The position numbers and the translations under genes are program-made. DNA of 64,000 nucleotides, taken from positions 62,001-126,000 of the forward strand of contig JABLUY010000031.1 in assembly GCA_013306675.1 (NCBI GenBank). The letters run 5' to 3'. Positions within the stretch are counted from its first letter, which is position 1; the number at the start of each line of letters is the position of its first letter. Below, piece after piece: positions 37,583 to 63,621 of the stretch. The stretch comes from Thraustochytrium sp. TN22. Its lineage: Eukaryota > Sar > Bigyra > Thraustochytrida > Thraustochytriidae. The notes under the pieces were generated by a model. The model had not been told where the DNA came from and ran no database searches. It saw nothing but the letters and a program-made list of their open reading frames with translations.

Positions 37583-40500
37583 ATGAAGCGCGTGAGCGCG
37601 GCGCCGGCGGGGGCGGCGGCGGCGGTGGTGGAGCCGGCGTCGCCCGAAACGAAGCGCGCGCGCGTGTCGGAGGCGGCGCTGAAGAAGCAGGCGCTGGCGA
37701 CGACGGGCACGCCCACGGAGGGCGAGGCCAAGATGGAGGTGGACGAGGAGCTGCGGCTGGAGCGGCCGCCGCTGGACGGGACGGAGATGGAGAAGGACAT
37801 CGTGATGCAGTGGGTGGACATGGACATGTACTCGGGGCAGCCGCTGGCGGAGCACCCGGCGGCCGGCGAGGTGGTGCCCGGGCTGCGCACGGGGGAGGTG
37901 CCCATCATCCGCATCTTCGGCGTGACGGATGCAGGACGCAGCGTGATGGCGCACGTGTACGGCGTGACACCGTACTTTTACACGGACGTGCCGGGGCCGA
38001 CGTTCGCGGAGGCGGACCTGAGCCGGTTCCGCGAGGCGCTGGACGAGCGACTCAAGTCGGCGGCGCGCGTGCAGACGTCGTGCGTTGTGGCGGTGGTGAT
38101 CCGCGAGAAGATGAGCATCATGGGCTACTGCGGCGGGCAAAAGTCCAAGTACCTGCAGGTGATGGTGAGCCTGCCGAACCTGGTGCCCAAGGCGCGCACG
38201 ATCCTGCAGGGTGGCTTCCGTTGCCCCGGCTTTACGGAGAAGACGTACATGACATACGAGAGCAACGTGCCTTTTGTGCTGCGGTACATGGTGGACAACA
38301 GCATCGTGGGCAGCAACTGGCTGACGATTCCGCGCGGCCGTTTCCGCGCGGCGCGGTCGCGGCAGTCGCGGTGCCAGCTGGAGGTGGACGTGGTCTTCGA
38401 GGACATCGTGTCGCACGACCCGGCGCTGCCGGACTGGGCCGGCATCGCGCCGCTGCGCATCCTGTCATTTGACATTGAGTGCATGGGCCGCCGTGGTGTC
38501 TTTCCGGACCCGGAGGTGGACCCGGTGATTCAGATCGCGAGCTACGTCAAGGTGCAGGGCGAGTCAGAGCCGCGCGCCAAGGTGGTGTTGGTGCTGGACA
38601 CCTGCCTGCCGATCGTGGGCGCGCAGGTGCGGTCGTTCCAGGACGAGCGTGACCTGCTGCTGGCCTGGACGCAGCTGGTGCAGGACGCGGACCCGGACAT
38701 CGTGACTGGGTACAACGTGGAGTCTTTCGACTTCGACTACCTGCTGAACCGCGCCAAGGCGCTCAAGATCGAGTCGCGCTTTGCGCAGCTGAGCAAATTG
38801 CGTAACAAGGTGGCGCGCATCAACAAGAAGGTTTTCTCTTCGGCCGCGTACGGGTCCCGCGAGAACTCGGAGATCGAGATGGAGGGCCGCGTGGTGATGG
38901 ACATGATCCAGTACATGTTCCGCAACCACAAGCTGTCGTCATACTCGCTGAACGCGGTGTCGAGCGAGTTTTTGGGGCAGCAGAAGGAGGACGTGCACCA
39001 CTCCATCATCAGCGACCTGCAGCGCGGCACGGACGAGGACCGCCGCCGCCTGGCCGTGTACTGCCTCAAGGACGCTTTCCTGCCGCTGCAGCTGCTGGAG
39101 AAGCTCATGGTGGTCATCAACTACCTGGAGATGGCGCGCGTGACGGGCGTCCCCGTGCCCTTTCTCTTCTCGCGCGGCCAGCAGATCAAGGTGCTCAGCA
39201 TGCTCTACCGCAAGTGCCTGCAGCTGGACATCATCGTGCCGGTGCTGCCGCGTGCGGCGGGCGCTGGCGGCGACGGCGACGTCACCTACGAGGGTGCGAC
39301 GGTAATCGAGCCCAAGCGGGGCTTCTACGACGAGCCCGTGGCAACGCTGGATTTCGCATCCCTGTACCCGTCCATCATGATGGCGCACAACCTTTGCTAC
39401 ACGACGCTCATGACGGAGGAACAGGCGCGCGGGCTCGAGGAGAACAAGGACTACAAGAAGACGCCGACCGGGCACATGTTCGCCACGAGCGAGCACCAGC
39501 GCGGCATCTTGCCCACGATCCTAGAGGAGCTGCTCTCGGCACGTAAGCGCGCCAAGAAGGACATGAAGGCGGCCAAGGACCCGCTGCGCAAGGCTGTCAT
39601 GAACGGCCGCCAGCTCGCGCTCAAGGTCTCGGCCAACTCCGTGTACGGTTTCACCGGCGCCACCATCGGCTCGCTGCCCTGCATCCCGATCTCGTCCTCC
39701 GTCACGGGCTACGGCCGCGACATGATCAACGCCACCAAGGAGGCCGTGGAGAAGAACTACGAGGGCTCCGAGGTGGTTTACGGTGACACGGACTCGGTGA
39801 TGATCCGCTTCGGCAAGGCCACCGTCAAGGAGACCATGGAGCTCGGTCTCAAGGCCGCGGACGAGCTCACCAAGGAGCTCTTCATCAAGCCCATCGCGCT
39901 CGAGTTTGAAAAGGTCTACTTTCCGTTCCTACTTCTCGCCAAGAAGCGCTACGCCGGCATGTACTACTCAAGCTCGCCGGACAAGCCGGACAAGATGGAC
40001 ATGAAGGGCCTTGAGACAGTGCGCCGCGACAACTGCGGCCTCGTGCGCACCGTCATTGGCACCTGCCTGCACAAGATCCTGGTCGACCGCTCCGTGGACG
40101 AGGCCGTCGACTACGCCAAGGAGGTCATCGCGGCCCTCTTGCAAAACAAGGTCGACATCTCGCTCCTCATCGTCACCCGCTCGCTCACGAGCAAGTTCGA
40201 GGACACCGAGTCGAAGATGCCTCACACCGAGCTGGCGCGCCGCATGCGCGAGCGCGACCCGGGCTCTGCCCCGGTCATGGGCGACCGCGTGCCCTATGTC
40301 ATCGTTGAGGGTGCCAAGAACGCGCCGGCATACCAAAAGTCCGAAGACCCGCTCTACGTGCTGCAGCACAACCTCCCCATTGACTTCGACTACTACCTCA
40401 AGAACCAGCTCGAGAAGCCGCTCCGCCGTATCTTTGCGCCCATTCTCCCTAACGCCGACGTCATCCTCAAGGGCGACCACACGCGCAAGCGCTACAAGGC

Positions 40501-40831
40501 CATGTCCGGCTCGGTTGGCATCGCACGCTTCGCCGTCAAGAAGCTGCAATGCATCGGCTGCCGCGCGCCCATCGACCGCAAGGGCGGCTTGTGCAACAAC
40601 TGCGAGAAGAAGCGCGAATCCATCTACCTCGACCGCCTCGCCGAGTCCAACGACCTCGAGGACCGCTTCGCGCGCCTCTGGACCGAGTGCCAGCGCTGCC
40701 AGGGCAGCTTGCACCAGGACGTGCTCTGCACCTCCCGCGATTGTCCCATCTTTTACATGCGCAAAAAGGTCCAAAAGGACCTCGAGCAGGTCCAGGAGAA
40801 GCTCGACCGCTTCGCCGAGATTGACTTTTGA
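37583..40831 (+). CDS. POLD1: DNA polymerase delta catalytic subunit
   Basis: A 1,082-residue B-family replicative polymerase that synthesises the lagging strand with PCNA and proofreads. The 3'-5' exonuclease motifs are intact: Exo I SFDIECMG (Asp297, Glu299), Exo II within GYNVESFDFDYLLNRA, and Exo III YCLKDAFLP. Polymerase motif A (DFASLYPSIM), motif B (KVSANSVYGFTGA) and motif C (YGDTDSVM, Asp735 and Asp737) are intact. The C-terminus has the zinc CysA module (CIGCRAPIDRKGGLCNNC) and the iron-sulphur CysB module (CQRC, then CTSRDC). Length matches human POLD1 (1,107). The chosen ATG precedes a basic Lys/Arg patch (ETKRARVSEA) suited to nuclear import. No PIP box is obvious at the C-terminal end. 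Confidence 0.97.
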   Translation: MKRVSAAPAGAAAAVVEPASPETKRARVSEAALKKQALATTGTPTEGEAKMEVDEELRLERPPLDGTEMEKDIVMQWVDMDMYSGQPLAEHPAAGEVVPGLRTGEVPIIRIFGVTDAGRSVMAHVYGVTPYFYTDVPGPTFAEADLSRFREALDERLKSAARVQTSCVVAVVIREKMSIMGYCGGQKSKYLQVMVSLPNLVPKARTILQGGFRCPGFTEKTYMTYESNVPFVLRYMVDNSIVGSNWLTIPRGRFRAARSRQSRCQLEVDVVFEDIVSHDPALPDWAGIAPLRILSFDIECMGRRGVFPDPEVDPVIQIASYVKVQGESEPRAKVVLVLDTCLPIVGAQVRSFQDERDLLLAWTQLVQDADPDIVTGYNVESFDFDYLLNRAKALKIESRFAQLSKLRNKVARINKKVFSSAAYGSRENSEIEMEGRVVMDMIQYMFRNHKLSSYSLNAVSSEFLGQQKEDVHHSIISDLQRGTDEDRRRLAVYCLKDAFLPLQLLEKLMVVINYLEMARVTGVPVPFLFSRGQQIKVLSMLYRKCLQLDIIVPVLPRAAGAGGDGDVTYEGATVIEPKRGFYDEPVATLDFASLYPSIMMAHNLCYTTLMTEEQARGLEENKDYKKTPTGHMFATSEHQRGILPTILEELLSARKRAKKDMKAAKDPLRKAVMNGRQLALKVSANSVYGFTGATIGSLPCIPISSSVTGYGRDMINATKEAVEKNYEGSEVVYGDTDSVMIRFGKATVKETMELGLKAADELTKELFIKPIALEFEKVYFPFLLLAKKRYAGMYYSSSPDKPDKMDMKGLETVRRDNCGLVRTVIGTCLHKILVDRSVDEAVDYAKEVIAALLQNKVDISLLIVTRSLTSKFEDTESKMPHTELARRMRERDPGSAPVMGDRVPYVIVEGAKNAPAYQKSEDPLYVLQHNLPIDFDYYLKNQLEKPLRRIFAPILPNADVILKGDHTRKRYKAMSGSVGIARFAVKKLQCIGCRAPIDRKGGLCNNCEKKRESIYLDRLAESNDLEDRFARLWTECQRCQGSLHQDVLCTSRDCPIFYMRKKVQKDLEQVQEKLDRFAEIDF

Positions 40832-49030: not shown

Positions 49031-52000
49031 TTAGAGCGCAGGATGCGCGATGGCGATGCGGTAGTGCTTGGCGTGCGTATCAACAGGCTCCGCGGCGAGC
49101 CGTCGGCGGTCGGTCCGCGTGTCGATGGCCTCCAGGTAGGCAACGAGGTCGGAGACCTTGCTCATCTTTGCGAGCATGGCGGGCCGCAGCTTGCGCGCCT
49201 CGGCGGGCAGCACGGCGTGCAGTTCGCCGACGAGCGCAGAGGCACCAAAGGAATCGAGGCCCACGTGCGTCAAATCGGAGTCCATGGTGACCACGGCGCC
49301 AGTGAGGTGACGGATTTGCAGCTTGACCACCTCGAAGATTGTGTGCGCGCCGCGTTCGTCCTCGTCCTCCGGGAGCTGCGGGCAGCAGCAGCAGCAGACG
49401 CTGAGGATGACAAGGCGCCAGAAGATGACGGCCACCGGCATGAGCTTGGGGTTGATGCGGTCGCTGAAAAGCTTGCTGATGGCCAGCGAGAGCGCGAAGA
49501 TGACAAAGACCTCCCACCACTGCATGGGGAAGGGCGTGTCGCCAGCGTCCTGCAGAAAGACATCGTCGGTGCCCCGCGTAAGGAACCAGTAATAGTAGGC
49601 GACGGGGATGTGCAGGAGATAGACGCCGTAGGAGAGCGGGGAGAACTTGACGAACGGGCGGAAGCTGAAGATCTTGGACGTGTAGCCATGGCCCTTGGCA
49701 AGACCGGCGATCCAAATGGCGAGGGCGGGCGTGGCGAGGCGCTGGAAGCCCAGGCGCTCGCTGAGGCTCGTACTCCAGCGGCCCGTGGTAGAATACAAGT
49801 CACTTTGGAGCCAGTCGTCATAGGTGCAGATGTCGTCTTCGCAGACGAGCACGACAGCGATGACCATGCCGACGAAGGCGCAGCTAAGTCCATCGGTGAC
49901 GACGGTCCAGACGAGGCGGCGGATGCGGCCCGGGTTGTCGGTGTGGCGCAGCACGTTGAAGCGCCACATGAAGATGCCGAGCGCGAAGGCTGGAATCCAC
50001 GTGATGAAGTGGTACGAGAGGTTGGCGCCGTCCGGAATGAGATAGGCAATGGGCATGGCGCTTGTGGCGCACGCGGTGAGCGCGAGGCAGCAAGCGATGG
50101 CAGTGCGTAGGCTGGAGCGGCGCGCGGCCGCGTCGACAAAGGGAAAGATGAGCACGAGCATGTAGTACGTGGAGGTAAACCAGGTCGGGTCAAGAAAAGA
50201 GACGACCGGGCTGAAAGGGATGGCGTACTGGAAACCGGTCAGGTAAAAGACCAGGCTGGGGATGACACTGCCCCAGTAGGTCTGGTCGGACTCCTGTGCC
50301 AGCTCGCACGTGGCGGAGGTTGGCCCGCAGTAGATGAAAAAGGTAGGGATGGCGACGAGCACCGCGAAGAGGTAGGTTGCGTACGGCGCGCTGAGACGCG
50401 AGACGTAAAAGGCCCGGCGCTCGTCGTTCTCGAGCGGCTTGTGGGTGGCCGCTGCGAGCAAAAAGCCGGCGAGGATGACGAAGATGGACATGTTGAGCGA
50501 GAAAGACTGCATCTTGGCCCACGACTTGTATGGCATGAGTCCGATGTCGTACTGCACGACAAAGTACGAGGTGCAGAGGCGCAGGCCGTAGAGCGCGTCA
50601 TTGGGGCGCAGGTCGCCCTGCGGCTTGTCTTCGCCGGCAGGGGCTGAATTCGGGTTCACCGGGAGGGCCACATGCGAGAGGTCGACCGGCACGACTTCGA
50701 GCGCCTCCGCCGCGCCGCGCCGGTCGAACCTGCCGCTCGGGTTCCTGAGGCGGTCCAGGGCCTCCTGGTCCACCACCACGACCTGGCTTGGGCCATTGGC
50801 GCGGCCAAGCTCGCGGTGCGTGCGGGACAAGACGGACAACGGGTCGACGGTGTCGAGGCCGGGCCGCGGCACGACGGCGACTGCGACCTCCTCGCCCCAG
50901 ACTGGGTTGGGCACGACGAAGCTGAGTGCCGCGCCAACGTCCGGGTGCATGCGCGCGGCGCGCTCCACCTCGTGCAGGGAGACCTGCGCGCCGCCCCGCT
51001 TGGCCATTTCCTTGAGGCGGCCGCGCAGCGTGATCCAGCCGTCCGCGTCCATGAAGCCCAGGTCGCCCGTTTTGAGCCAGCCGCCCGGCAGAAACTCGCT
51101 CCCGTCGCTGCCCTGGTAGCTGCGCATGACACCGGGCCCGCGCAGCACAATCTCGCCGACCTCGCCGATGCTGAGCGGAATCGCATTGTCGTGTGTGCCC
51201 TTGGCCACGATGCGCACGTCGGGGCCGATGGGCGGGCCGACGCTGTCGGGCCTGTCAAGCGTGTAGCCGAGCGGCGCGGAACTGATCGGCATGGATTCGT
51301 TCATGGAGTAGCTGGGCAGCACGTCGCAGCCGAAGGCGCGGCGCAGGCCCTCGGCCACGTCGCGCGGCAGGTGCGCAGCGCCAGACCGCACGAAGCGGAG
51401 TGAGGTGCGCAGAAGCGGGGCTTGCGCCGCATCCGCGCTGTCGCCCTCTTCCACGTCCTCGTCGTCAATGTCAATGTCAACTCGCGCGCTGCTGCCATCC
51501 TCCTCGTCCTGGTCGTCGCTTAGCTCGAAGCTCGTGGCCGCGGCCACGCCGGCCCCGTTCCGGCGCGCTCTGCTGCGTTTCTCTTCAACGTGGCGCAGCA
51601 AGGCGCGGTGGACGGCGGGCATGGCGTAAAACCAGGTGATGTCATTGTCCTGGATCCAGTCAAGGAAGTCGCTGGGGTCAAAGTAGGGTGAGATGGCGAT
51701 GCTGCCGCCGCTGACCAGGACCGCGAGCAGATTGAGAGTGATGCCGCCAATGTGGAAGAGCGGGCCGGCGGCGAGCCCGCGATCGTTGGGATCGAGGCGC
51801 AGCGAGTCGACCAGGGTCTGTGCATTGTACATGAGATTGCCGACCGTGAGCGAGACGACCTTGGGCTCGGCCATGGTGCCCGCCGTGCGCACCACAAGCA
51901 TCTCGCGATCCGCCGGGTCGGTGACGCCCACGGCCCCGCGGTCGCGCCATTCGCGCCAGGCGATGGGCGACCCGCTGGCGAGGCGCACGAGCGAGAGGCG

Positions 52001-52537
52001 GCGCGCACTGGCGCGGCGCTCCCTGGCATTGACAGGCTCGTCCGGGAGCGAGGCGGCGCGCGCGGGCCAGGCGATGGCGCCCATGGGCGCGTTGCGCTTC
52101 TGGCTGATCTCGATGACGCGCGAGAAGGCGCGCGACTGTCTGGCGGCGAGCACGCCCGCGCCGCAGGCCACCGCCACCTTGCACCCTAGCTGGTGCGCCG
52201 CGCGCGCGAGCGCCCTGGGCGGCAGTTCCGTATCCAGCGGGCACGCCGCCCCCTTGGACATGACGCAGAGCAGCGCCGTCGCGCACAGCACGCCTTCATC
52301 GCTCGGCACCAGCACCGCCACCCTCTTCCCCCTCAGGTGCGCCGGCGTGGCGGCCAGTTCCTTGATGAGCATCCCGTACGTGATGGCGCCCTCCACGGCC
52401 ACGCCCAGGTCCTCCTCGCCCACGTTCACCAGCGCTGGCTTGGCGCGCACGTGCCGCCGCAGCGCCTCCTCCAGCGACCCGGGCGTCGCCGTGCGCTCCC
52501 CGCCCACGGACGCCGCGCGCTCCGCCACGCCTGACAT
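49031..52537 (-). CDS. Adenylation - acyltransferase-3 - carrier protein fusion
   Basis: An 1,168-residue three-part protein (from Met 52537; the frame is open to a Met at 52891 with a low-complexity leader). First comes an acyl-AMP ligase/AMP-binding domain (about 52480-50700), with VRTAGTMAEPKVVSLT (A3-like), YSMNESMPI (A5), WLKTGDLGFMDADGW (A7) and GRLKEMAKRGG (A8). Next is a multi-pass acyltransferase-3 (OatA/NolX-like) membrane domain (about 50620-49420), with roughly ten hydrophobic helices including SIFVILAGFLLAAATH and SPLSYGVYLLHIPVAYYYWF. Last is a phosphopantetheine carrier domain (about 49340-49120) with the attachment Ser in THVGLDSFGASALV (codon 49250-49252). The order implies that an activated acyl group is loaded on the carrier and moved across or within a membrane by the AT3 domain. 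Two expected catalytic residues differ (see findings). The substrate is unknown. Convergent with the SAP gene. Confidence 0.88.
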   Translation of the reverse strand: MSGVAERAASVGGERTATPGSLEEALRRHVRAKPALVNVGEEDLGVAVEGAITYGMLIKELAATPAHLRGKRVAVLVPSDEGVLCATALLCVMSKGAACPLDTELPPRALARAAHQLGCKVAVACGAGVLAARQSRAFSRVIEISQKRNAPMGAIAWPARAASLPDEPVNARERRASARRLSLVRLASGSPIAWREWRDRGAVGVTDPADREMLVVRTAGTMAEPKVVSLTVGNLMYNAQTLVDSLRLDPNDRGLAAGPLFHIGGITLNLLAVLVSGGSIAISPYFDPSDFLDWIQDNDITWFYAMPAVHRALLRHVEEKRSRARRNGAGVAAATSFELSDDQDEEDGSSARVDIDIDDEDVEEGDSADAAQAPLLRTSLRFVRSGAAHLPRDVAEGLRRAFGCDVLPSYSMNESMPISSAPLGYTLDRPDSVGPPIGPDVRIVAKGTHDNAIPLSIGEVGEIVLRGPGVMRSYQGSDGSEFLPGGWLKTGDLGFMDADGWITLRGRLKEMAKRGGAQVSLHEVERAARMHPDVGAALSFVVPNPVWGEEVAVAVVPRPGLDTVDPLSVLSRTHRELGRANGPSQVVVVDQEALDRLRNPSGRFDRRGAAEALEVVPVDLSHVALPVNPNSAPAGEDKPQGDLRPNDALYGLRLCTSYFVVQYDIGLMPYKSWAKMQSFSLNMSIFVILAGFLLAAATHKPLENDERRAFYVSRLSAPYATYLFAVLVAIPTFFIYCGPTSATCELAQESDQTYWGSVIPSLVFYLTGFQYAIPFSPVVSFLDPTWFTSTYYMLVLIFPFVDAAARRSSLRTAIACCLALTACATSAMPIAYLIPDGANLSYHFITWIPAFALGIFMWRFNVLRHTDNPGRIRRLVWTVVTDGLSCAFVGMVIAVVLVCEDDICTYDDWLQSDLYSTTGRWSTSLSERLGFQRLATPALAIWIAGLAKGHGYTSKIFSFRPFVKFSPLSYGVYLLHIPVAYYYWFLTRGTDDVFLQDAGDTPFPMQWWEVFVIFALSLAISKLFSDRINPKLMPVAVIFWRLVILSVCCCCCPQLPEDEDERGAHTIFEVVKLQIRHLTGAVVTMDSDLTHVGLDSFGASALVGELHAVLPAEARKLRPAMLAKMSKVSDLVAYLEAIDTRTDRRRLAAEPVDTHAKHYRIAIAHPAL

Positions 52538-54057
52538 CTCGCCGGCGCCGGGGCCCGCGTGGGCTCCGGCCTCTTCCTCGCCCGGGCTTTCCGGCTTTGC
52601 TGGCTGGCTGGAGCCTCGCTCGCCGCCCTCCGGCTTCGCAGCCAGCTCCTTCCTCTCGCGCTGCGCTGCACTGACACCTGCGCCGCCGCCTGACTGACTG
52701 TGAGCGAGAGAGCTCAGAGAGGCGAGGCGGCACGTCCAAGACGGCGCCTCTGCACTGCCGGCGCCCGCCAGACTCGGCCGCTGCTCCGCTTCTTGCTGCT
52801 CGCCCGCTCGCTCGCTCGCTCGTCGCCGACCTCGCCTCCCTCTCGAGCCGCCGCGCGCGGCGCGATGCTCCTGGCGACTTGGAGAAGGCAATGAATGCGT
52901 GCGCGCTCGCCGCCTGCGCCTGCGCTTTCTGCGCGCGTGCGCGGGACGGCACGCGCCGGTCCCCCGCGGACTGCGGTGTGGTGGCGGTGATTTACATTAG
53001 TGCGGTAAGGCAGGGCAGGAGCTGAGGCTGTACCAGCGGCGCAAGTTGAAGTCGAAGGGGGCGGCGCGCGGCCACAAGTTGAAGCTCGAGTTGGAGGCGC
53101 GCTGCCAGGAGGCCGGGCCAGGTGGGAACTCGCCGGCACGCCGCGGGACGCGGGAGGAGGAGGCCTGCGAGCGAGGGAGCGCGCGCAGAGCGGCGCTTCA
53201 GTCAGGGCGGCGCTGGAGGCGAGGATCCGCGAGCCGCCAGCCGAGGGCGAGGTCGGCGAGGCGAGCGAGGTGCTCCGTCCGGTACAGCACTCGAAGGAGA
53301 GCACTGGGCTACATGATGCCCAGAAATGCGCAGCGCGGGGCGTGCTTCACAGCTGGCCAGCTTGCGCGGCGCTGGGGGCGACGAGCTAGCTGCCAGTGGA
53401 GGGCGCTCGGCGGGGAAGCGCGCGAGGGCTTGTTGCAGGGCGAGGATTCCGGGCTCGGAGGCCTCGTGGACTGCTCGTCATACGGTCATCGTGCTTGTGC
53501 TTGGTTGGGTGGAGGCGGCGAGCGAGCGAACGAACGGCAGGGCGCCAAGGGAACCAGCTGGCACCAGCTGGCTCGAGCTAGGAGGCGCTAGCCAGAGGAA
53601 GAGAGCGGGCTAGCGGCCAGCGGCCACTCGAGCAAGCTCTGCGAGCCTGGCTGGCTTAGCTTGAGGCTTGAGCTACGGAGCTCGGAAAGGGAATTTGTGG
53701 TCGCTCGTTTGGCCAGCAAAGAGGCAAGTAGCGCGGCGTCTGATGAGACGCGTCACAATAGGCATCGATGAGTCATGGATTGTTCGGAGAATCTTATTCT
53801 CGTATGGCAATGAGGTTAGGTAAAGCCCGAAGATGCCACGCTTAGCGGCTCGTGGCGGCGCTGCAAGTAAAGGCCCAGGGCACAGTACGGGACCGCGGAG
53901 AAGTCATACTCAGGGGTTTCGCCGTTGCACAGCTCGGAATTGCCCGACGCGCCATGATGCGTGTCGCAGTAGGCATCGATGAGTCATGGATCGTTCGGAG
54001 AATCTTATTCTTAAAACGTATGGCAATGAGGTTAGGTAAAGCCCGAAGAAGCCACGC
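52538..54057. other. Intergenic region with duplicated gene end
   Basis: About 1.5 kb. 52538-52900 is the low-complexity possible leader of the fusion gene. 52975-53040 is a small AT-richer patch (tgatttacattagtgcgg) that may hold its promoter. 53040-53700 has gcgag and gctagc motifs and no convincing gene. 53742-53955 is a tandem copy of the 3' end of the next gene. Confidence 0.6.
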
Positions 54058-58440: not shown

Positions 58441-59203
58441 GCGTCCGCGCGCTCTTATCCCTCGCGCTTGCTTCTCAGAGCTGGAATTTGGTCCTTTGTC
58501 GACAGGCAGGCAGGCCGAATTGGACTCCATTCGCCCGGGTCGGAGGACGTGGGACGGGGCTGGCAACCTTGGACAAGTGGCTCGTGCGCGCGAAAATGGA
58601 CTCCATCTCTGAGCCTGGGCCGGTCTGCCTTCTAGAGCCACGCGCCGCGCCTCACGCGTCGCGCCTCAATCGCATCGGCCGTCTCATGCACGCGCATCCT
58701 CTGGGCTGCGCGACCCGGCCGGCGGGCGAACAAGGTGGACATATGCTCGAGCATGCGTGGCCGCACATATGCGCCCGCGGAGGGCGTGGTCGCTGCAACT
58801 CACTGCAATCTCGCAGAGCTTGGGTCTCATCGGCCGCCCTCGGGCGCGAAACCGCGCGTCCCCCGCGCGTCCCTGCCCGCGGCGCGCAAGCCGCAGCTAG
58901 CCGGCCGGCCGGCCGGCTGTGCAGCGCGCTGCAGCCAGGGTCCATCGATCAAGGTCCCAGCGGCGCATCGGGCGCGGGCCGTCCGTTCCAGGGACAGAAA
59001 CGACGCTCCTGTGGGGACAAAATTTCTCTTCTCCAATTTCGGCTTCACTTCATCAGTGGCTTGCTGCGCGAGCCAGTTGCCGCCTGCCAGCGGCGTGGCG
59101 GCAGGCGGCAGGCGGCGAGGCGGCAGCAGACCCGAAAAGAGAAGAGAGCCAACCCAAGCGTAGAGAACAACTTTGAAAGCGAGTGCCGCGTGAGCGCGAG
59201 AAA

Positions 59204-61003
59204 ATGCTCCAGCAGCGCATGTTCAGGGCGGCTGCAGCCGTGCTGGCTGTAGCTGCGCTGGCCGCGGTGGCGCAGGGCGCCGAGGAGGAGACGTGCGGCG
59301 CCAAGAACCAGGCGCCGTGCACGAGCGGCGATGCTTGCGAGGAGGGCCTCGTGGTGTACACGTACACCAGGAGCGGCGTTGAAACGAGCATCTGCACACC
59401 GTGCGGCACGAACTGGCGCGCGCCGTGCACGGACGACAACGGGGAGCCGACGTGCGCGGCCGGGCCGTCCGAACTGGTCCTTTACGAGTACACCAAGGAC
59501 GATGAGGTCGTGCAGGTGTGCAACACGTGCGGCACGAACCTGCGCGCGCCATGCCAGGCCGAGGACGGCACGCTCTCGTGCAAGGCCACGTATGCGCTGA
59601 CCACGGAGCAGGACATGTGTGTCCCGTGCGGCTACCACGGCCGGCCTGTGTGCACGGGCGCCAACACGCGGCGCTGCGACCTGGGTACCGTGGAGGGCGA
59701 CGATGAGCACTGCTACATGTGCGGCGGTCAGGACCAGGCGCTGTGCCCTGGCACCGAGGCGAACTGCTTGCCGGGCTTCACGCCAAGCACGGAGGATCCA
59801 ACCAAGTGCACGCGCTGTGGCCTGAATGGCAAGCCGCGTTGCACGAATGCCAATGAGTCGCCGTGCTTCTCGAACCTCGGTGTGGACGCCGATGGCCTGT
59901 GCACCACCTGCGGCACGAAGGACAAGCCGGTGTGCGAGAATTCGTGCGAGCCGTGCAAGACGGGCTATACGCCGAGTCTGGAGGATGGCGGCGTGACCTG
60001 CGTCCGCTGCGGCTGGAGCAAGCAGCCCTGGTGCACCAATATGGGCGAGGAAAAGTGCGCCTACGGCCTGACGCCTGCGGACGACCACACGTGCCAGGCG
60101 TGCGGCAGCAGGAACCAGATGCAGTGCGGCATCGTCGGTGCGCACATTGCCGAGCGCTGGTCCTTCACCCCGGCGGCCTACGAGGACGACGAGGACGACA
60201 GCGAGCTTGATGTCTTCGACATGGCCTACCAGATGCTTTCCTTTGTGCCGGTGGGCGGTGACGAGTACCGCGTGTCCAAGATGCCGCAAAGCAACTACGA
60301 AAGCGTGAACTGGAGTAAGGTCGCCTTCTCGGGTCTCTCCGAGAAACGCATCCATGAGTTCGGTTTTTCGTTCCCCTTCTTTGGCAAGACCTACACCAAG
60401 GCCTGCCTCAGCACGCAGGGCCACATCGTCTTTCCCGAGGACGATGCCGAGACCGTTTTCCCCAACTGTGACGCCGTGGATGTCGACACGCCCATCACCC
60501 TGAGCACGCATTACAACGCCAAGCGCATCAGCTACATGTACGACCACTGGGACGCCGCCAGCATGGCCGCCGTCAAGGGCTTCCAGGCCACTGCGGAGGA
60601 CGGCCGCCAGTACTTCTCCATGGTCATGACGAACGTCAAGGACGAGAGCAACGCCATCTCATCGTACGAGGGCCAGAACTACGCGCAGATGGAGGTGGTT
60701 CTCTTCGATGACGGCGAGATCCACACCTTTTACCGCTGGACGCGCTCTCGCGACGGCGTCGTCGGCATTTCACCGGGCTATGCGCCGGCGTCCTACGAGG
60801 ATGTCAACTTTTCCGCCGAGTTCTGCCGCACGGCATACACGCCCGCCGACGACGGCCTCTGCGTCTCCTGCGGTGGCAACAACCAGCCCATCTGCCGCAA
60901 CTCGGCCGGCCAGGAACCCTGCCGCAACCACCACACTCGCGAGTTCGGCGACGACGGCAAGCCTACCGGCTTGTGCGTGCGCTGCACCGGTGGCTCCTGC
61001 TGA
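59204..61003 (+). CDS. Secreted Cys-rich repeat protein with shared 'QGH-RWTRS' domain
   Basis: A 599-residue secreted protein. The signal peptide (MLQQRMFRAAAAVLAVAALA, cleaved near QGAEE) is followed by nine ~30-residue Cys modules, each starting CG-x4-x-x-C (CGAKNQAPC, CGTNWRAPC, CGTNLRAPC, CGYHGRPVC, CGGQDQALC, CGLNGKPRC, CGTKDKPVC, CGWSKQPWC, CGSRNQMQC). After an acidic spacer comes the same domain as in the gene at 54058-55197 (FGFSFPFFGKTYTKACLSTQ, GHIVFPEDD, then YRWTRSRDGVVGISPG), and a tenth Cys module (CGGNNQPIC) near the end. Even Cys spacing suggests disulphide-linked modules, fitting a cell-wall, scale or adhesive protein. No membrane anchor is seen. The start is the first ATG; the earlier in-frame GTG is not used. 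Confidence 0.85.
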   Translation: MLQQRMFRAAAAVLAVAALAAVAQGAEEETCGAKNQAPCTSGDACEEGLVVYTYTRSGVETSICTPCGTNWRAPCTDDNGEPTCAAGPSELVLYEYTKDDEVVQVCNTCGTNLRAPCQAEDGTLSCKATYALTTEQDMCVPCGYHGRPVCTGANTRRCDLGTVEGDDEHCYMCGGQDQALCPGTEANCLPGFTPSTEDPTKCTRCGLNGKPRCTNANESPCFSNLGVDADGLCTTCGTKDKPVCENSCEPCKTGYTPSLEDGGVTCVRCGWSKQPWCTNMGEEKCAYGLTPADDHTCQACGSRNQMQCGIVGAHIAERWSFTPAAYEDDEDDSELDVFDMAYQMLSFVPVGGDEYRVSKMPQSNYESVNWSKVAFSGLSEKRIHEFGFSFPFFGKTYTKACLSTQGHIVFPEDDAETVFPNCDAVDVDTPITLSTHYNAKRISYMYDHWDAASMAAVKGFQATAEDGRQYFSMVMTNVKDESNAISSYEGQNYAQMEVVLFDDGEIHTFYRWTRSRDGVVGISPGYAPASYEDVNFSAEFCRTAYTPADDGLCVSCGGNNQPICRNSAGQEPCRNHHTREFGDDGKPTGLCVRCTGGSC

Positions 61004-61551: not shown

Positions 61552-63621
61552 ATGGCGGAGGAGGACGCGGCGCCGGTGCGGCGCATCGCGCGGCCCGAGC
61601 ACGTGGACGCGTTCCTGGCGTCGCCAACGTGCGCGGCGCTGGAGCGCTTCGTGGGGCAGCTCAATGCGGCGGCGTCCGGCGGCAAGGCGTCCACGGCGGG
61701 CGGGTACGAGGGCTCGTGCGAGGGCGTGGAGGGCGCGCTGGCGGCGCTGGACCGCGCCGACGAGCTGCTGGAGAGTCATCCGCCGCAGCAGCAGAACGCG
61801 CGCTTCGGCAACGCGGCCTTCCGCACGTGGCTCGCCGCGGTGACGGAGCTCGCCGAGGAGGACATGAGGGAGCTGGTGAAGGCGCCGCGGCCGCGCGAAC
61901 TGGCGGGCTATTGGTGCGCGAGCTTCGGCAACGCGCGCCGCCTGGACTATGGCACAGGCCACGAGGCGAGCTTTCTGGTCTGGATGCACGCATGCCACGA
62001 GATGGGGTGCGTGGCGGACCTCGAGGGACTCGTGCTGCACGTGTTTCCGCGGTACCTGGAGCTGGCCTACGCCGTGCAGTCGCGCTACCGGCTGGAGCCT
62101 GCCGGCTCGCACGGCGTGTGGTCGCTGGACGACTACCACATTCTACCTTTTGTGTTTGGGTCGGCGCAGTTGAGCCCGGCCGAGGAGGGCTCAGGCGGCT
62201 CGGGCGCGGGCGCGCTGCTGGGCACGAGGCCCAAGGCGTCGCGCGACCGCCTCATGGTGGAGGACATGGCGGCCTCGAGCATGTACATGCGGGCGATCCA
62301 GCGCATCAACGAACTCAAGTCGGGCCCGTTCGAGGAGCACTCGCCGCTGCTGCACGACATCGCGCAAATCTCCTCGTGGACCAAGGTGAACCGCGGGCTG
62401 CTGGCCATGTTCCGCGGCGAGGTGCTGGCAAAGTTCCCGGTCGCGCAGCACTTCCTCTTCGGCGCGACCTTCCCGAGCACCTGGGAGCTCGATTCCAGCG
62501 ACGAGGCATCGCTCGCGGCGTCCGAGAGCAGCGGCGGCGGTGGCAGCGGCGCGCGCGGGGGCGGTGCGACGGGCAGCCCGTTCGGGCCGGGCGGCCTGGG
62601 TGGCGCCACGGCGCGCCCGGGTGGCGGCGGTCCCGCTGGCGGCGATGCGCTGACCAAGTACTTTGGCATCTCGCGGCGGCCGCTCGTCGGGCCCGGGTCC
62701 ATGGGCGGGCCGAGCGGCGCGGCCGGGCCAGCGTGCGGGCTCAAGCGCGGCGGTCTCGCAGCTCGGGATGAGATCGCCGCCGCGGAGACCGCCGCCGTGC
62801 CGCACACGCTGCTGGACGGTGAGCGAGGCGTGGAGGTGGCGGGCTTTCGCATCGAGACCGACAAGGCGCGTATCTCGGGCGAGGCGGACCTGGAGGGCGT
62901 GCGCGACCAGCACACCTTCGAGGGTCACTGCCTGGACTTCCCCCTGCCCGAGATGCTCTTCGGCAGCAACGCTGTGCGCTTCACGCACCTGGACTCCAAC
63001 ACCGTGCTGGAGTTCAACGCGGCGGACGCTCTCTGTGGTTGCAAGATCGAGCGCGACGAGGACGGCACGCCAGACCGCACCCTCTTCAAGCTGCCGAGCG
63101 CAGCGCAGTGGGAGAACCGGCAGACGCTGAACGGCGAGACCATCAAGGCGTGGCGCGACGACTTCGACTGGACGTTTACGACACGCTACCGCGGCTCGCT
63201 GCTCATTGACGGCCAGCCGCAGCCGCTGCCGACCGAGCCGAGCGACGCGGAGATTGACTACCAGCTCTTGCGGCAGCGCGAGCCCTTCCTCTTCTTTGAC
63301 ACCGTGCCGCTCTTCGAGGACGATCTCTTCGACAACGGCGAGAGCAAGCTCACCGTGCGCCTGCGCGTCATGGCCTCGTGCTTCTTTGCGCTCTCGCGCT
63401 TTTGGCTGCGCGTCGACAACACCTTCGTGCGCTGCTTCGACACGCGCGTCTTTCATCGCTTCGGCACAGACCACATTCTCATCGAGCACACGCGCAAGGA
63501 GATGTCCGCCAAGGCACTTAGCGACAAGGGCTTTGGTGATTTGCGCATCATGATGGACGAAGAGCGTGTGGAGAAGCTCCTTCGCCAGATCTCGAGCGAG
63601 ACCGTCAAGGTACCACTGTAG
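61552..63621 (+). CDS. PTPA-TIP41 fusion, two PP2A regulators in one protein
   Basis: A 689-residue fusion. Residues ~10-315 are a complete PTPA domain (PP2A phosphatase activator): RRIARPEHVDAFL, FGNAAFRTWL, LDYGTGHEASFLVW, SHGVWSLDDYHILPFVFGSA, SWTKVNRGLLAMFRGEVLAK and FPVAQHFLFGATFPSTWEL. A Gly/Ala-rich linker covers ~316-425. Residues ~428-689 are a complete TIP41/TIPRL domain: VAGFRIETDKARISG, LDFPLPEMLFGSN, FTTRYRGSLL, LRQREPFLFFDTVPLFEDDL, FWLRVDNTFVRCFDTRVFHR. PTPA helps fold and metal-load the PP2A catalytic subunit; TIP41 binds PP2A-like catalytic subunits and modulates TOR signalling. Both partners act on the same enzyme, so the fusion is functionally coherent. There is one uninterrupted frame with uniform codon bias, so it does not look like an assembly artefact. 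The ATG is preceded by GC-rich ggcga repeats. Confidence 0.93.
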   Translation: MAEEDAAPVRRIARPEHVDAFLASPTCAALERFVGQLNAAASGGKASTAGGYEGSCEGVEGALAALDRADELLESHPPQQQNARFGNAAFRTWLAAVTELAEEDMRELVKAPRPRELAGYWCASFGNARRLDYGTGHEASFLVWMHACHEMGCVADLEGLVLHVFPRYLELAYAVQSRYRLEPAGSHGVWSLDDYHILPFVFGSAQLSPAEEGSGGSGAGALLGTRPKASRDRLMVEDMAASSMYMRAIQRINELKSGPFEEHSPLLHDIAQISSWTKVNRGLLAMFRGEVLAKFPVAQHFLFGATFPSTWELDSSDEASLAASESSGGGGSGARGGGATGSPFGPGGLGGATARPGGGGPAGGDALTKYFGISRRPLVGPGSMGGPSGAAGPACGLKRGGLAARDEIAAAETAAVPHTLLDGERGVEVAGFRIETDKARISGEADLEGVRDQHTFEGHCLDFPLPEMLFGSNAVRFTHLDSNTVLEFNAADALCGCKIERDEDGTPDRTLFKLPSAAQWENRQTLNGETIKAWRDDFDWTFTTRYRGSLLIDGQPQPLPTEPSDAEIDYQLLRQREPFLFFDTVPLFEDDLFDNGESKLTVRLRVMASCFFALSRFWLRVDNTFVRCFDTRVFHRFGTDHILIEHTRKEMSAKALSDKGFGDLRIMMDEERVEKLLRQISSETVKVPL

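Follow-up and report, generated by a model that had tools for sequence, protein, structure and literature searches.

Why would two regulators that compete for one phosphatase subunit be built into a single chain? The question is raised by an open reading frame (ORF) in a 64,000-nucleotide stretch of the Thraustochytrium sp. TN22 genome (contig JABLUY010000031.1, positions 62,001 to 126,000; hereafter the window), in which PTPA and TIP41, both acting on catalytic subunits of the protein phosphatase PP2A, are joined by a linker. A first-pass annotation of the window described both domains as complete and in frame in one 689-residue ORF, and near full-length Pfam matches bear out that description. 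The fusion and its parts are given below, with positions counted from the first letter of the window.

61552-63621, forward strand: PTPA-TIP41 fusion ORF, 689 residues plus stop, 74.7 kDa, with an ATG start (from the ORF list, Pfam, and fused orthologues)
61573-62484, forward strand: PTPA domain, residues 8-311
62485-62802, forward strand: linker, residues 312-417, mostly low-complexity Gly/Ala/Ser/Pro (from the alignment and AlphaFold)
62575-62583, forward strand: second and weaker linker element, [SNT]PF, residues 342-344, upstream of the YF motif
62644-62676, forward strand: linker motif DALTKYFGISR, residues 365-375 (from conservation and AlphaFold)
62803-63618, forward strand: TIP41/TIPRL domain, residues 418-689

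The PTPA family (PF03095) matched residues 8 to 308 over profile positions 1 to 292 of 293 (E = 2.5e-91; 306.6 bits against a gathering threshold of 27), and the TIP41 family (PF04176) matched residues 468 to 656 over positions 1 to 173 of 174 (E = 1.3e-49; 168.5 bits against 25). In fold comparisons, the first half matched solved PTPA structures and the second half solved TIPRL structures, with the TIP41 fold beginning at about residue 418 to 426, N-terminal to the start of its Pfam match. The linker contains zero stop codons and the frame stays open across it. However, GC content across the window is 64 to 72% and long chance frames are frequent (a 517-residue frame and a 432-residue minus-strand frame both overlap the fusion ORF), so that the open frame is by itself no proof and the proof lies in homology. 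Judged by the homology of its sequence, the fusion is genuine. The first-pass annotation also spoke of a Gly/Ala linker. The segment (about residues 312 to 417) is indeed rich in Gly and Ala, as well as Ser and Pro, but it is not mere filler, since it holds a conserved motif at residues 365 to 371.

Fused relatives, copy number, and origin

The first-pass annotation had proposed looking for single proteins that match both PF03095 and PF04176. When roughly 5.8 billion proteins were searched, 904 matched, and among the best 120 of these, which were listed, 35 proteins carried both domains, occupying ranks 1 to 35. We aligned 28 of the 35 together with the window protein (29 rows, hereafter the 29 fusions, all of which match both families), excluding the partial sequences P0002, P0031, P0032, P0034, and P0035, as well as P0015 and P0026, which resemble P0014 and P0025, respectively. 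A second alignment of 36 rows held all 35 listed fusions and the window protein. When a profile search was seeded with the 29 fusions, the same 35 were recovered among the matches listed, along with a fragment (P0121) that retains the PTPA end, the motif, and TIP41.

An organism is given for 3 of the 35 fused proteins: Hondaea fermentalgiana, whose orthologue is 68% identical to the window protein, Mucochytrium quahogii (47%), and a doubtful Batrachochytrium BASA81 entry. The first two belong to the Thraustochytrida within the Labyrinthulomycetes. Their fusions share the architecture and linker motif of the TN22 protein, whereas their linkers differ in length and composition and their labels mention a 2A activator only. 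Elsewhere in the set, the name of P0027, which carries both domains, marks it as an assembled transcript whose ORF is complete, and P0006 is a fused protein in the MMETSP set. Identity to the fusion ORF declines to 31 to 39% for P0008 to P0035, and from this low identity the fusion looks old. The fusion that the first-pass annotation assigned to "this lineage" is therefore real but not peculiar to one genome, given 35 other fused proteins at down to 31% identity. The protein filed under Batrachochytrium salamandrivorans BASA81 (P0030), from a contig of 268,979 bases, is a single member sequence that falls among rows bearing no species label and may represent contamination or a mislabel.

We found no description of a PTPA-TIP41 fusion in the open-access literature, in line with the first-pass impression that it was undescribed, although subscription-only or deep-text mentions could be missed; the available part of the main text of PMC2705460 contained neither PTPA nor TIP41. 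The proteins themselves are already in public databases. What is known, then, is both families, together with their union, which sequence databases already hold under a label naming only one half ("Serine/threonine-protein phosphatase 2A activator"). What is new, as read from the alignments, is the conserved motif inside the linker.

A six-frame search of the 38-Mb genome for separate copies, another check that had been proposed, found no second PTPA or TIP41, with one match to each family and both matches being the fusion ORF; a copy split into small exons or lying in an assembly gap could escape such a search. A similar six-frame search picked up TAP42 as three adjacent pieces. Thus, the fusion is apparently the sole supplier of PTPA and TIP41 functions in Thraustochytrium sp. 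TN22. In profile searches of the genome, TAP42/alpha4 matches were present on contig C161, and loss of TAP42/alpha4 as the cause of the fusion was rejected for that reason. There were also four matches to the LCM family, assigned at the family level without implying LCMT-1 orthology, and two to FRB.

Divergence in the PTPA half tracks that in the TIP41 half (Mantel r = 0.88). In a PTPA tree of 67 rows (the 29 fusions plus 38 PTPA-only rows selected by hand among those listed), the fusion state needed five changes under the initial labels, and the starred branches force five. Four PTPA-only rows (P0036, P0037, P0085, and P0123) nested among the fusions, and counting them as fusion-type placed 33 rows on one side of a branch that had support of 71/76 and was not starred. 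P0037, which runs through the motif into the beginning of TIP41, is a truncated fusion. Judged by eye, the gene models of P0123 and P0036 seem truncated, and P0085, whose long tail lacks TIP41, may be a genuine split. Thirty-one unfused PTPAs formed a strongly supported branch (100/99), with the unfused P0137, P0140, and P0145 on the unfused side but outside it. The TIP41 tree (42 rows, two changes) was weak, with long branches meeting, and the short TIP41-only frames P0173 to P0176 sat inside the fusions. A single origin of the fusion is compatible with, rather than established by, these trees.

Contact residues and the linker motif

According to the available text of PMC5741625, human TIPRL holds the tail of the PP2A catalytic subunit (PP2Ac; D306-Y307-F308-L309) in a groove made up of R144, K171, R173, R184, R200, L141, I147, F180, and T138, and F150 is also named as a contact residue in that of PMC4973239. 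All 29 fusions have L141, R173, R184, and R200, and 28 have F180. K171 is Lys or Arg and I147 is Ile or Phe throughout, while R144 is Arg or Lys in 27 of 29. At the T138 position, 27 of the 29 carry Tyr, which is Y570 in the fusion ORF. Human L141, R173, F180, R184, and R200 correspond to L573, R605, F612, R616, and R632, and the TIP41 half retains the basic and hydrophobic groove, R200 included. For human PTPA, mutational analysis has shown that V209, E270, V281, G290, M294, and K302 bind PP2A (available text of PMC3958860). E270, G290, M294, and K302 are kept in the fusion ORF as E262, G282, M286, and K294 and in 27 or 28 of the 29 fusions, and V209 corresponds to V189 by manual count, so that the PTPA half carries PP2A-binding residues. 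With contact residues mostly kept, both halves look functional.

The PTPA half resembles PTPA/PPP2R4 and yeast Rrd1-Rrd2 (PF03095) in having the complete domain, the same fold, and most of the residues that contact PP2A. However, those proteins are usually stand-alone, and the fusion adds a linker, TIP41, and the fusion-typical residues S191 (two residues from the position matching human V209, by manual count) and W311. Likewise, the TIP41 half resembles TIPRL/Tip41 (PF04176) in its complete domain, its fold, and most of the residues lining the tail groove, but it forms the C-terminal half of a fusion where its relatives usually stand alone, and it carries the Tyr in place of T138. Compared with unfused proteins, R509, R523, Y570, and S609 are typical of the fused TIP41s. 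This comparison drew on eight unfused TIP41s, one of which has Tyr at the Y570 position; Ser at the S191 position occurs in 16 of 132 unfused PTPAs.

The tail that both regulators contact is altered in this organism. The PP2Ac orthologue (locus L020; G000:C453, Metallophos match at 162300-162881) scored 573 bits against the solved PP2A catalytic subunit alpha and aligned to the chain end. Its tail reads ...GEPHVTRRTPSFLL (RRTPSFLL), compared with RRTPDYFL (...TPDYFL) in the solved PP2Ac chain; three of the four terminal residues are changed at the DYFL position, which TIPRL and PTPA contact, and the codons run open to the stop. On the pseudo-ligand reading considered below, the SFLL tail could reflect co-adaptation. 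Four others among the ten best metallophosphatase loci with ends examined finish in YFL or YFM. The four PP2A-like catalytic subunits L018, L019, L023, and L024 have the ends PAYFL, VDYFL, PSYFM, and PDYFM; they were called PP2A-like from sequence, and L019 alone was compared with PP2Ac (377 bits).

Linker length ranges from 42 to 161 residues across the 29 fusions. In the fusion ORF, the linker is mostly predicted to be disordered, with AlphaFold predicted local distance difference test (pLDDT) scores below 50 at residues 326 to 363 and 376 to 414. Between these stretches lies an island with a short predicted helix (residues 366 to 371), where the conserved pattern D-x-L-x-[KR]-Y-F is found (D365, L367, K369, Y370, and F371). 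In the 36-row alignment, D365 was present in 27 rows, L367 in 26 (with Phe in 5 more), Lys or Arg at 369 in 32, Y370 in 32, and F371 in 35. The core hxx[YF]F occurred in 27 of 29 linkers, whereas 2,000 shuffles of the same linkers gave 0.6 on average and 4 at most, a test that rules out composition but, because related sequences share ancestry, does not count independent retentions. The linkers without the core are those of P0030, which keeps KYF, and P0033; [KR]YF is also found in P0002, P0015, P0026, P0031, P0032, and P0121. Eleven of the 29 linkers contain the [SNT]PF element, against 1.5 on average and 7 at most after shuffling. A near-invariant Pro upstream of the motif fell at P356 in one alignment and P343 in another, and we therefore treat its invariance as partly an alignment effect.

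Two possible sources of the motif were considered. Derivation from the C-terminal tail of an ordinary PTPA is not supported, since only 1 of 85 PTPA-only proteins (P0036 to P0120) has the motif after the domain, namely the truncated fusion P0037, and 84 lack it. As for derivation from a TIP41 N terminus, inspection by eye of a small set, the four TIP41-only proteins P0177, P0178, P0179, and P0183 that are extended at that end, did not reveal the motif.

A proposed relay on the catalytic subunit and its alternatives

PTPA and TIPRL act at opposite ends of the life of the PP2A catalytic subunit. According to the available text of PMC5741625, human PTPA stabilizes the active PP2Ac fold and helps with metal loading, and human TIPRL binds unmethylated PP2Ac, perturbs the active site, and disassembles holoenzymes with alpha4. 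Their footprints on PP2Ac overlap, they compete, and both contact the C-terminal tail DYFL. Because of this overlap, the fused domains should not be able to occupy the same catalytic subunit together, and by analogy with the human proteins, it is unlikely that both halves act on it jointly. Like the first-pass annotation, we infer that chaperoning and inhibition are coupled in one molecule. The explanation we favor, at about even chances, is that the fusion is a relay between activator and decommissioner on type-2A catalytic subunits, with the linker motif helping to gate it.

In such a relay, the PTPA half would fold and activate a catalytic subunit, which the TIP41 half would inactivate after demethylation of the tail. 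The covalent link would set the two rivals at 1:1 and at high local concentration, and a subunit leaving one half would be met at once by the other, with a linker of this length and predicted disorder allowing exchange between them. The direction would be set by tail methylation and alpha4. The YF motif would dock on the fusion protein itself, more probably in the PTPA tail pocket than in the TIP41 groove, and once docked would help decide which half stays free. If so, the lineage would have coupled the steps of activation and decommissioning, and the fusion would be a natural single-chain reagent for the hand-over between them, with the motif as one short testable element.

Structural work offers suggestive precedents for such docking. 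In the available text of PMC4973239, the groove in which TIPRL holds the tail was occupied by a tag peptide ending in LYFQ. The PTPA pocket of 4NY3 contained a TEV-linker peptide, and the authors draw a connection to the PP2Ac tail. Given these peptides, a pocket of this kind could accommodate the YF motif of the fusion. When residues 312 to 689 were predicted without PTPA, the island lost confidence and TIP41 was predicted equally well or better; the loss hints at contact between the motif and PTPA through packing. As a mimic of the PP2Ac tail (DYFL), the motif supplies the YF pair but neither the acidic residue before it nor a free carboxylate, being internal and having Lys or Arg there in 32 of 36 rows. 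With this basic residue, no carboxylate, and a predicted helix, it fits the basic TIPRL groove poorly. Charge, the missing carboxylate, and the half-protein prediction make that groove less likely as the sole docking site.

Several observations weigh against the gated relay. Among contact residues, the TIPRL F150 position varies among the 29 fusions, and PTPA V281 is Ile in the fusion ORF and variable among fusions. P0033 is a full-length fusion without the motif, the partial fusions P0034 and P0035 carry KHF, and on the tree P0036 and P0085, which belong to the 84 PTPA-only proteins lacking the motif, fall within the fusions. The motif has Lys or Arg before YF where PP2Ac has Asp, is predicted to be helical, and lacks the C-terminal carboxylate that TIPRL R200 grips. 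Furthermore, removing PTPA from the prediction does not abolish the short helix (H55-60), and the pLDDT drop (island block means from 67 and 58 to 54 and 50) is indirect, being read from confidence scores of blocks whose boundaries are one residue apart. We consider it rather doubtful that the motif is a built-in pseudo-ligand in the PTPA (or TIP41) tail pocket, making the protein self-gated until the real PP2Ac tail displaces it. If that reading were true, one chain would be a tail-operated switch between PP2A activation and shutdown.

It is also possible, though we think it improbable, that the fusion merely enforces coexpression and 1:1 dosage, with the halves acting on separate phosphatases, the linker passive, and the motif serving another purpose. 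Both domains look ordinary, and a linker that varies from 42 to 161 residues implies that fixed interdomain geometry is not needed. However, a passive linker fits poorly with a short motif conserved within otherwise drifting sequence, and mere coexpression with the fusion-typical residues in both domains.

For the role of the motif, the main rival is an external partner. Short motifs of the PIP-box-like and MLH1 types dock proteins on such partners, and the PCNA-interacting PIP box has the consensus Q-x-x-h-x-x-a-a. A YF motif of a PIP-box-like (PCNA-binding), MLH1, or other type that recruits the PP2A regulator to such a partner is unlikely in our judgment. The hxx[YF]F core with its short predicted helix fits, as does the cluster of basic residues that closely follows an aromatic pair in 15 of the 29, whereas the loss of motif confidence without PTPA hints at an internal partner. 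A strict PIP box was rejected, as none of the 29 linkers has Gln at position 1 of the full consensus and the core alone accounts for the 27.

It is quite improbable that the chain is cut in its flexible linker or that TIP41 alone initiates internally at the one in-frame Met there (residue 384), as this stretch is poorly conserved (that position is filled in 15 of the 36 rows, and Met occurs only in the fusion ORF). Least credible is an artefact of gene model or assembly that joined two neighboring genes, which the first-pass annotation had named as a possible refutation: for all the long chance frames of this GC-rich window, the linker has no stop, and the Hondaea orthologue and the 35 listed fused proteins, including the transcript P0027 and the MMETSP protein P0006, exclude an assembly error.

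Neighboring reading frames

Three other ORFs in the window are described here. The one adjoining the fusion gene had no Pfam match at an E value of 0.001.

59183-61003, forward strand: 606-residue ORF adjoining the fusion gene, in which short Cys motifs recur (CG..N.P.C, judged by eye)
49031-52891, reverse strand: AMP-binding (adenylation) domain and C-terminal Acyl_transf_3 acyltransferase domain in one ORF
37583-40831, forward strand: DNA polymerase delta catalytic subunit-like ORF, 1,082 residues
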